From: Epilithonimonas zeae
Lineage (GTDB): Bacteria; Bacteroidota; Bacteroidia; Flavobacteriales; Weeksellaceae
Assembly: GCF_023278365.1 (NCBI RefSeq)
Contig: NZ_CP075338.1
Location: 372,001-436,000 of the forward strand
Direction of reading: 5' to 3'
DNA length: 64,000 nt
Below, in pieces: positions 28,819-30,434 of this stretch. How positions within the stretch are numbered: position 1 is the first letter of the stretch; each line of letters begins with the position of its first letter. A model generated the notes under the pieces. That model had not been told where the DNA came from and did no database searches. It was given only the letters and a program-made list of their open reading frames with translations. A program made the position numbers and the translations under genes.

Positions 28819-28851
28819 TTGAGCTAAGTTTGATATTAATTTATATATTTG
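28819..28851 (+). promoter_or_regulatory. predicted promoter of the aromatic leader transcript
   Basis: TTG at 28819-28821, a 22-base spacer and TATATTTG at 28844-28851 match the phylum promoter. It lies just after a terminator and 78 bases before the leader ORF, leaving a 5' leader of about 350 bases ahead of the DAHP synthase gene. Confidence 0.5.
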
Positions 28852-28928
28852 TCAAAGATTTCTTCGACACAAGAAGAAAAAATATCAACCAAAACAAGCT
28901 AAAAGTCCTTTAACAAAGGATTTATAAA

Positions 28929-29057
28929 ATGGAATCAAATCAATTTCCATATTTTACAACTTCAAGATCTGTCATTTCTTTTGACAGATTATTTAGTTTT
29001 TTTGGATTTTATTATGGAAATTTCAGAACCTATTACCGATTTTATTGGCTTAGCTAA
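28929..29057 (+). CDS. aromatic-rich leader peptide, 42 aa
   Basis: A short frame with an A-rich initiation site (TATAAAATGG) encodes 42 residues of which 16 are Phe, Tyr or Trp. Residues 22-40 read FSFFGFYYGNFRTYYRFYW, 12 aromatics in 19. It ends at TAA 29055-29057, 153 bases before the gene for DAHP synthase/chorismate mutase, the entry step to Phe, Tyr and Trp. This is the signature of a translational sensor for ribosome-mediated attenuation: scarce charged Phe/Tyr tRNA would stall the ribosome within the aromatic run and alter leader folding. The regulatory role is inferred; the coding bias is directly visible. Confidence 0.75.
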   Translation: MESNQFPYFTTSRSVISFDRLFSFFGFYYGNFRTYYRFYWLS

Positions 29058-29128
29058 CTGAATTTCTTTCTCAAAAAACTCACGGAACAATTTCAAATTC
29101 CGTAACACATTTAAAATTTTTTTAACGG
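28967..29128 (+). promoter_or_regulatory. candidate attenuator structures upstream of DAHP synthase
   Basis: Several pairings can form. ATCTGTCA (28967) pairs with TGACAGAT (28982) inside the leader ORF. GAAATTTCAG within the aromatic codons can pair with CTGAATTTC just past the stop. ACGGAA (29082-29087) pairs with TTCCGT (29098-29103), and that CCGT can instead pair with ACGG (29125-29128), with TTAAAA and TTTTAA between. The last two share bases, so they exclude each other. A T run lies at 29117-29123 and T5 at 29132-29136. Which is terminator and which antiterminator needs folding. Confidence 0.5.
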
Positions 29129-29145
29129 TACTTTTTGAAAAGGAA

Positions 29146-29165
29146 TTATAAATCAAGATTTATAA
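29146..29165. promoter_or_regulatory. 20-bp palindrome before DAHP synthase
   Basis: TTATAAATC and GATTTATAA form perfect nine-base arms around AA, ending 45 bases before the ATG. It could be an operator or an AT-rich hairpin in the leader. Confidence 0.4.
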
Positions 29166-29210
29166 CAGATACACTATTGCATTAATTTAAAATTATATAA
29201 AATTAAAAAT

Positions 29211-30290
29211 ATGAACTTAAACGATTTAAAGAACGATTGGATACAAGACTTCGCAAACCCAATGATTATTGCAGGTCCTTGTAGTGCAGAAAGCGAATCT
29301 CAAATGCTAGAAACAGCTAAAAGACTGAAAGAAAGTGGTGCAGAAATCTCAGCTTTCCGTGCAGGGATTTGGAAGCCAAGAACCAAACCAAACGGTTTCG
29401 AAGGAGTAGGGGTAATCGGTCTTAACTGGCTAAAAAAAGTAAAAGAAGAATTCGGTTTCAAAACGGCAACAGAAGTTGCGAATGCACACCACGTTTTTGC
29501 AGCATTGGAAGCAGATGTAGACATTCTTTGGATTGGAGCGCGTTCTACGGTTAACCCATTCACGGTTCAGGAAATTGCTCAAGCGTTGAGAGGAACCAAC
29601 AAACCAGTTTTGGTAAAAAATCCGGTTAATCCAGATTTGGCGCTTTGGATTGGTGCTTTGGAAAGACTTTTGGGTCAAGGTGTAGAAAATATCGGCGCCA
29701 TCCACAGAGGTTTCTCAACTTACCAAAAAACCAAATACAGAAACATCCCGAACTGGCAAATTGCTTTAGATTTCAAAAATCAATTCCCTAATATTCCTTT
29801 GTTCATAGATCCTTCACACATTTGTGGAAACAGAACTGGTTTGGCAGGCGTTGCGCAGGAAGCTTTCAACGTGGGTTACCAAGGTGCAATTATAGAAAGT
29901 CACTGTGACCCGGATAATGCGTGGAGCGATGCTTCTCAGCAAATCACACCAGAAGTTTTGGCAGAAATGATAAACAATCTTCAGGTTCGTAACTCTGATA
30001 TTTCTGGATATGAAGACGAAATGGGAAAACACAGAACTTTAATCAGTGATATGGATTTCCAATTGATTGAGTTGTTATCTCAAAGAATGAAAATTTCTGA
30101 GAAAATTGGAACATTGAAAAAAGAGAATAACATCGCTATTTTCCAGCCGGAACGTTGGAAAGTAATTACAGAATATGCGACTCAGAAAGCATTTGAAACA
30201 GGTATGTCTCAGGAGTTCATAGAAAAAGTTTTCAAAGCCATCCACGAAGAAAGTATCGAAGTTCAGAATAACATTATGATTGACAGATAA
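29211..30290 (+). CDS. bifunctional DAHP synthase / chorismate mutase type II
   Basis: The first 260 residues form a KDO8P/DAHP-synthase barrel (AroA-beta type): IIAGPCSAES, FRAGIWKPRTKPNGFEG, LWIGARSTVNPF, LVKNPVNPDL, IDPSHICGNR, IESHCDPDNAWSDA. It joins phosphoenolpyruvate and erythrose 4-phosphate, the first step of the shikimate pathway. The C-terminal 95 residues are an AroQ chorismate mutase (DFQLIELLSQRMKISEKIGTLKKENN, QPERWK). The fusion allows the mutase part to sense prephenate. No other aro gene is adjacent. An aromatic-rich leader peptide upstream points to attenuation. Confidence 0.93.
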   Translation: MNLNDLKNDWIQDFANPMIIAGPCSAESESQMLETAKRLKESGAEISAFRAGIWKPRTKPNGFEGVGVIGLNWLKKVKEEFGFKTATEVANAHHVFAALEADVDILWIGARSTVNPFTVQEIAQALRGTNKPVLVKNPVNPDLALWIGALERLLGQGVENIGAIHRGFSTYQKTKYRNIPNWQIALDFKNQFPNIPLFIDPSHICGNRTGLAGVAQEAFNVGYQGAIIESHCDPDNAWSDASQQITPEVLAEMINNLQVRNSDISGYEDEMGKHRTLISDMDFQLIELLSQRMKISEKIGTLKKENNIAIFQPERWKVITEYATQKAFETGMSQEFIEKVFKAIHEESIEVQNNIMIDR

Positions 30291-30299
30291 TAATTATTT

Positions 30300-30434
30300 G
30301 GGCAGCTTAATCCACCTTCCGCTCCCAAACTTAACAGAGTGGTTCGACGAAGTCAATCTTTTTTGCAGACCATTTCAGATTAAGTAGAAATTGAGTACAG
30401 GCAAAAAAGGATTTCCGCTCAAGTCGGGCTGCAC
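30300..30434 (-). repeat. dispersed noncoding element, copy 1
   Basis: Read on the minus strand it opens with GCAGCCCGACTTGAGCGGA (box at 30414-30432) and closes with GAGCGGAAGGTGGATTAAGC then TGCCC (30300-30324). Between them, a T-rich arm (AATCCTTTTTTGC) pairs with an A-rich arm (GCAAAAAAGATT). The ends GCAGC and GCTGC also pair. A second copy of the same design is at 38719-38799. It holds no open frame and follows the DAHP synthase gene. Confidence 0.7.

Follow-up and report, generated by a model that had tools for sequence, protein, structure and literature searches.

What controls the gene for a DAHP synthase/chorismate mutase fusion in Epilithonimonas zeae (genome size 3.94 Mb), and does the short, aromatic-rich reading frame that precedes it take part in that control? 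We addressed this question in a stretch of 64,000 nucleotides (the window, to which positions refer unless a locus is named), for which a preliminary description had read the frame as the leader peptide of a ribosome-mediated attenuator. The elements from which this reading starts are the following:

28844 to 28851, + strand: promoter -7 box TATATTTG, of the Bacteroidetes TAnnTTTG type (motif match, kept in relatives).
28929 to 29057, + strand: leader frame of 42 codons, 16 of them for Phe, Tyr or Trp (composition, conservation, shuffles).
29211 to 30290, + strand: DAHP synthase/chorismate mutase fusion gene (PF00793, E 1.3e-40; PF01817, E 4.5e-22).

Domain matches agree with the identity given earlier to the gene, which encodes a DAHP synthase (PF00793) followed by a C-terminal chorismate mutase (PF01817). 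The predicted upstream promoter is also borne out, as the box at 28844-28851 fits the TAnnTTTG consensus for Bacteroidetes promoters, as given in the portion of PMC9723704 used here, and 103 of 105 related leaders have the motif 166-237 bases upstream of the last base of their stop codon. Shortly 3' of the fusion gene, at 30300-30313, there is a motif GGGCAGCTTNATCC that was found in 18 of 227 loci, some of them overlapping; by eye it belongs to a larger segment that recurs at Epilithonimonas loci and may be a repeat dispersed between genes.

The leader frame translates as MESNQFPYFTTSRSVISFDRLFSFFGFYYGNFRTYYRFYWLS. A recount returned the figures of the preliminary description, i.e. 42 codons with 16 aromatics, 12 of them within residues 22-40, which are the densest 19 codons of the frame, and 153 bases from the end of the stop to the gene start at 29211. 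In aromatic density the frame ranks first among the 509 ATG frames of 19-80 codons in the 64-kb window; as a caution, 12 of 51,972 stop-free 19-codon windows over all six frames hold at least 12 aromatics, the leader's own among them. When the leader was subjected to 20,000 dinucleotide shuffles, of which the 1,683 stop-free ones were counted, a single one matched 12 aromatics in 19 codons. The aromatic density of the frame is above chance, and the enrichment is not equal to that of shuffled controls, an outcome that the preliminary description had set against its own reading. Rfam 15, with all its riboswitches and leaders, T-box included, gave no match at the gathering score.

Concerning distribution, all 23 Epilithonimonas genomes were positive for the leader in a protein search, and a profile of 18 leaders had matches in 198 of 320 family genomes, comprising 23/23 Epilithonimonas, 169/173 Chryseobacterium, 2/2 of a third genus (g32) and, with weak scores only (E 9e-4 to 0.008), four from other genera. 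An RNA model that includes sequence and structure matched in 196 of the 320 genomes (Epilithonimonas 23, Chryseobacterium 169, g32 2, nearly always once per genome), with two weak matches in other genera (E 0.0026 and 0.007). Outside the family, an order-wide draw of 296 genomes yielded only profile matches with E above 0.003. Within the family, no such frame precedes the gene at any of 30 loci read in 29 other genera (one genome per genus, two for g26), and their richest short frames, with 3-7 aromatics in 15 codons, are unlike the leader. In 17 of these 30 loci, judged by eye, the frame preceding the gene has the same kind of C-terminus as the window's dnaX frame (LDDLxKFDxS and variants), which suggests that promoter and leader were either gained between the two genes in the genera that carry them or lost in the others.

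For 30 Chryseobacterium genomes, picked for a weak or absent leader match, the sequence preceding the gene was inspected directly. A clear leader is present in 26, one of which (L149) reads through the usual stop and is the only one of 105 leaders to have lost it; L155, L156 and L160 are very divergent and less certain, and L164 has no leader before the gene, the sole such case among the 30. The search of related genomes that the preliminary description called for thus finds the Phe/Tyr/Trp-rich frame kept in Epilithonimonas, Chryseobacterium and g32, and loss of the frame with retention of the DNA, which it had named as a contrary sign, comes down to one lost stop in 105 leaders and one absent leader in 30. 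All 105 leader regions were taken from before the gene, a few species being represented twice (L145 = L109, L150 = L111); L041, whose leader is on its own contig, is outside this set. Alignments A2 and A3 hold 58 and 35 of the 105 leaders, respectively, after removal of near-identical rows, and L149, L155, L156 and L160 were left out of both as unalignable.

The last 24 sense codons of the 105 leaders contain 6-14 aromatics (median 12), F, Y and W together making up 49% of these codons, versus 10% in the window frames of at least 250 aa (shares of Y, F and W are 0.26, 0.19 and 0.042, respectively), while Lys and Ile, which have AT-rich codons, are nearly gone (0.007 and 0.005, versus 0.082 and 0.076 in the large window frames). 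Tyr occurs there in 105/105 leaders, Phe in 104/105 and Trp in 104/105. The preliminary description expected a response to Phe and Tyr; both codons are indeed constant, but the limit to two products does not hold, and since Trp is as constant as the other two, all three products could be sensed by the leader. A comparison of 19 distinct Epilithonimonas leaders gives dN/dS values of 0.67 for the frame, 0.94 for its first half and 0.38 for its second half, and of 0.88 in each of the two other frames; therefore the peptide as such is weakly constrained in the first half. On these grounds and those given below, we consider it probable that the leader is a cis-acting ribosome sensor of the supply of charged aromatic tRNA for the DAHP synthase/chorismate mutase gene.

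Three segments of the RNA are relevant to such a sensor:

29016 to 29026, + strand: segment 1 (S1) of pairing P0, codons G N F R (pairing, covariation).
29058 to 29080, + strand: segment 2 (E1), right after the leader stop, which pairs with S1 (P0) or with E4 (P1).
29127 to 29147, + strand: segment 3 (E4), a U-tract plus GAAAAGGAATT, the P1 partner of E1 (P1 -11.9 kcal/mol).

RNAalifold, run on 58 sequences and given no hint, pairs the bases of the G/R-N-F codons with those directly after the stop. In P0 92.2% of cells are paired, versus at most 68.4% in slid versions, and the third base of the Phe codon matches its partner after the stop (C with G or T with A) in 71 of the 78 usable leaders, the other 27 of the 105 having been dropped where the pattern did not read a site, some of them carrying a non-pairing third base. 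On the gene tree, for these 78 leaders, this wobble site and its partner changed 11 and 9 times, 5 of them on the same branch, whereas independent simulation gave a mean of 0.96 and attained 5 once in 500 runs. It should be noted that the covariation of P0 lies mainly at this one synonymous Phe-codon site, where only 38 of the 58 aligned leaders have a standard pair, the other 20 being 5 register shifts by eye and 15 true mismatches. The percentage of paired cells is reached by 11 of 500 shuffles and the count of pairs with two-sided change by 433 of 500; against shuffled strands, the duplex has z < -1 in 65/105 leaders and < -2 in 12. Among single leaders, L085, L146 and L147 carry S-S codons in place of RNFR and have a P0 of about -12 kcal/mol (versus -8.1 in the window), and in L155 frame and pairing strand are both changed and still pair.

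E4 lies some 60-70 bases beyond E1, and the complementarity of the two defines P1, with z < -1 in 95/105 leaders and < -2 in 45. Its covariation is slight because the strands are nearly invariant; in one Chryseobacterium group (L099, L109, L127, L130) matched changes on both strands can be seen by eye. Because both use E1, P0 and P1 are mutually exclusive, and they provide the 1:2 versus 2:3 alternative of an attenuator, P0 by covariation at one site (with 15 of 58 leaders mismatched) and P1 by complementarity. The mutually exclusive hairpins proposed in the preliminary description do exist, but the pair that holds across species is P0/P1 and not the local one: a CCGT/ACGG alternative to hairpin H2 (see below) is confined to the window and part of Epilithonimonas, being absent in other Epilithonimonas, and was rejected.

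Peptides such as TnaC and SecM stall the ribosome that makes them, and the leader could be read in the same way, with a nascent peptide ending in RFYW causing arrest and sensing the free amino acid. The nearly constant peptide end agrees with this, the R, Y and W of R-x-Y-W being present in 92/92 leaders of canonical spacing, a set picked by a pattern that requires them. Variants at this end, however, keep the RNA pairing or the aromatic codons and not the peptide: an extra Tyr is found inside the block (RFYYW) in L146, L147, L152, L153 and L157, L154 reads QLYFW, L147 has RSSE for RNFR, and L143 and L144 have a displaced stop that lies inside the pairing strand. The near-neutral first half in Epilithonimonas also speaks against arrest. 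An arrest leader should conserve its peptide and not its codons, which is not the case here, even though the last residues are still nearly constant, and we hold this explanation to be very unlikely.

In classical attenuation of the trp, his or pheA type a stalled ribosome opens an intrinsic terminator that lies between leader and gene, and it is this architecture, that of the pheA and trp leaders, that the preliminary description had assigned to the locus. The own genome of E. zeae provides two positive controls, listed here by locus:

L195, 1187-1243, reverse strand: his leader frame (frame and terminator).
L197, 1260-1337: trp leader frame (frame and terminator).

Both leaders, MSIQLMHHHHHSHVQAGR and MKLMNTKNWWWLSNSLSGLKGLSVF, are of textbook type and each is followed by a single strong terminator ahead of the gene, so that the leader strategy is probably used in this organism; the stretch before pheA of the same genome (L196) has no leader of the aromatic-frame kind. 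For the aromatic leader the assigned architecture fails at the terminator. On the + strand of the window the terminator scan found no site from leader stop to gene, and by the same criteria a terminator-like site is present there in 0/105 leaders. A d'Aubenton-Carafa-type score, with constants from general knowledge, was applied to 25 of the 105 leaders; the best values after the stop range from -27 to -71, with no candidate in 2, far below those of the controls (his +35, trp +29, and +17 for the terminator of the gene upstream of the aromatic leader).

What does favour the classical scheme is that the alternative pairings have one strand in common, and that a weak AU hairpin precedes the 5-8 base U-tract of E4, its base seeming to covary by eye (CC/GG, TACT/AGTA, CCGT/ACGG); in 51/96 leaders the U-tract ends 7-9 bases beyond the last paired base of this hairpin. 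Yet the 32 bases before this tract have a mean fold of only -1.0 kcal/mol (98 sequences) and the weak hairpin is not excluded by P1, so we judge classical attenuation distinctly unlikely. The leader does have control codons before a biosynthetic gene, but the search for an intrinsic terminator between leader frame and gene, successful for his and trp, came out negative here, and for this reason we do not class the leader as a terminator-based attenuator. It is the sensing half of ribosome-mediated attenuation, whose output half does not fit, the output being other than a classical intrinsic terminator after the leader.

The strongest structure lies instead within the frame, upstream of the main aromatic block:

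28966 to 28990, + strand: hairpin IH inside the leader frame (-10.4 kcal/mol; z, covariation).
28991 to 29005, + strand: U-rich tract after IH, largely Phe codons (F S F F).

The IH region folds with a mean of -10.3 kcal/mol and has z < -1 in 99/105 leaders. In the hairpin 83.7% of cells are paired and 52 show two-sided change (19.4 when shuffled), with a covariation score of 0.481 against 0.236 for shuffled alignments, reached in 0/500 shuffles and with 0.192 as the best slid value; in Epilithonimonas plus one g32 leader 183 of 198 cells are paired, versus at most 103 when slid. An extra hairpin directly before IH, e.g. AAAACC/GGTTTT, is seen in L135, L137, L141, L142, L151, L158, L162, L080 and L117, all of them Chryseobacterium leaders, and in several of these it is read as added codons like KNLFGF.

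These data bear on the idea that the frame encodes a functional small protein, aromatic-rich for a membrane or other role. The frame is kept in about 194 genomes, as such a protein would be, but its first half is near neutral at the amino acid level while the RNA of IH covaries, and the peptide has no match in Pfam or NCBIfam, which makes this idea highly improbable.

A hairpin followed by a U-rich tail could itself be the terminator of the attenuator, in which case a ribosome stalled at FPYF just upstream would mask the 5' arm of IH and allow polymerase to read on. The conservation and strong covariation of IH are in line with this, as are a site within the frame that meets terminator-like scan criteria in 87/105 leaders and a Tyr8 that is invariant in the 18 leaders of alignment A1. 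On the other hand, the terminator score of IH is below zero in 25/25 leaders scored (-37 to -0.6, versus +17 to +35 for the controls), the U-tract is broken by AG, and P0 and P1 are left unexplained; we therefore consider it unlikely that IH has this role. Doubtful, too, is a version in which the stop or pause signal is inside the frame and P0/P1 are terminator-free, IH and the U-rich tract, which reads mostly F-S-F or Y-F-S-F codons, acting together as a Phe codon sensor and polymerase signal. IH would fit either a pause hairpin that keeps polymerase and ribosome in step or a terminator of low strength.

Four further elements were delineated in the transcribed region:

28859 to 28879, + strand: 5' end hairpin a (TTTCTTC/GAAGAAA; folding z).
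28889 to 28908, + strand: 5' UTR element U1, which can pair with the U-rich tract after IH.
29082 to 29103, + strand: hairpin H2 between E1 and E4 (z < -1 in 93/105 leaders).
29145 to 29166, + strand: hairpin H5 (TTATAAATC/GATTTATAA; A2 alignment).

The 38 bases after the promoter motif, corresponding to hairpin a, fold with z < -1 in 75/103 leaders. U1 may pair with 28987-29005 (mean -12.0 kcal/mol over 103 leaders), its own partner beating swapped ones in 73/103 and z being below -1 in 49/103; such a helix, for which these values are no more than suggestive, would close a domain around the leader start. H2 shows compensating arms by eye (ACGG/CCGT, GCGG/CCGC, ACAGGA/TCCTG), and H5 is kept, mostly invariant, in nearly all 58 sequences of A2. 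Two candidates were rejected. One is hairpin b, upstream of the start codon, which has a mean z of -0.30 and falls below -1 in only 27/103 leaders; the other is a pseudoknot between the H2 loop and the AAAGGRCT that precedes CTATTG. In the latter the loop, AGYCCTTT, matches AAAGGRCT about 50 bases before the gene start in L060, L061, L066 and other main-group Chryseobacterium, and the pairing covaries by eye in that group and fails in others. Read on the - strand, 29080-29105 consists of H2 and then the complement of an A-tract, terminator-like for - strand transcription.

The lack of a terminator 3' of the leader would also suit an action on the translation or stability of the DAHP synthase mRNA and not on transcription, as would the long-range helices (P1, and U1 with the U-rich tract), which need bases that are made late. 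The gene start region, however, is about equally open in all modelled states, with a predicted openness of 0.600 when stalled and 0.580 with the ribosome at the stop (higher when stalled in 68/105 leaders), and with no clear difference between states, sequestration of the start site was rejected. Control at the mRNA level is a tentative possibility.

Returning to the ribosome sensor of aromatic tRNA supply, we infer translation, stalling, the assignment of ON and OFF states and the output of the leader as follows. Transcription would start near 28858, as placed from the promoter box, and a ribosome would translate the 42-codon frame, whose retention across species speaks indirectly for translation. 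A stall on the codons around S1 (Tyr-Tyr, Phe, or Tyr-Tyr) would leave S1 covered and E1 free, thereby allowing P1, whereas a ribosome at the stop would cover E1, which after its exit would pair again with S1 to give P0; the ribosome footprint sizes behind this covering of S1 and E1 are general knowledge. By analogy with known attenuators, P1 would be the ON state. Since the U-tract of E4 is itself part of P1, this pairing can take effect only after the tract has been transcribed. The likeliest output is a pause at IH until the ribosome arrives, followed by putatively Rho-dependent, or weak intrinsic, termination.

In the pheL-pheA and trpL-trpE systems of E. coli, control codons stand in the leader frame and 1:2 and 2:3 pairings alternate. 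The aromatic leader has the same two features and differs in that no 3:4 terminator was found, in its long structured 5' UTR and in its in-frame hairpin, which to our knowledge is no feature of trp or pheA leaders. The genome's own his and trp leaders share with the aromatic leader the promoter type, by eye, and the runs of cognate codons; they differ from it by short 5' UTRs, again by eye, and by the strong intrinsic terminator before the gene.

The preliminary description pointed to attenuation at the pathway entry point and to its flavobacterial setting; both have precedents. The aroR-aroF attenuator of Corynebacterium glutamicum (Neshat 2014) has a leader peptide, with Phe-Tyr-Phe residues in aroR, before a DAHP synthase gene, and according to the passage of PMC11802643 used here it responds to Phe limitation and not to Tyr. 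Compared with that passage, and by description, the leader analysed here resembles aroR-aroF in preceding a DAHP synthase gene and differs in belonging to another phylum, in involving three aromatic amino acids with about 12 aromatic codons in the last 24, and in having a hairpin inside the frame and no terminator after it. For Flavobacterium psychrophilum, the portion of PMC9723704 used here proposes leader-peptide attenuation for amino acid operons and reports a conserved structured element upstream of pheA, i.e. in the same phylum, Bacteroidetes, and at another gene, a comparison by description only. Small frames reminiscent of attenuation leaders are mentioned for Bacteroides in an excerpt of PMC7366714, and the Bacteroid-trp RNA (RF01692) appears in an excerpt of PMC6414381 as a cis-regulatory RNA of the aromatic pathway in Bacteroidetes; the RF01692 covariance model has no match in the window or in the whole genome. 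A search of the open-licence literature in PubMed Central found no paper on this aromatic leader.

If the proposed reading is true, control coupled to translation would govern the committed step of the aromatic pathway across about 194 species with sequenced genomes, and this in a phylum that departs from the textbook models in both its translation and its promoters. The leader would then represent a design that keeps the ribosome sensor without the standard terminator, beside his and trp attenuators of textbook type in one and the same genome, and its many natural variants make the mechanism directly testable.
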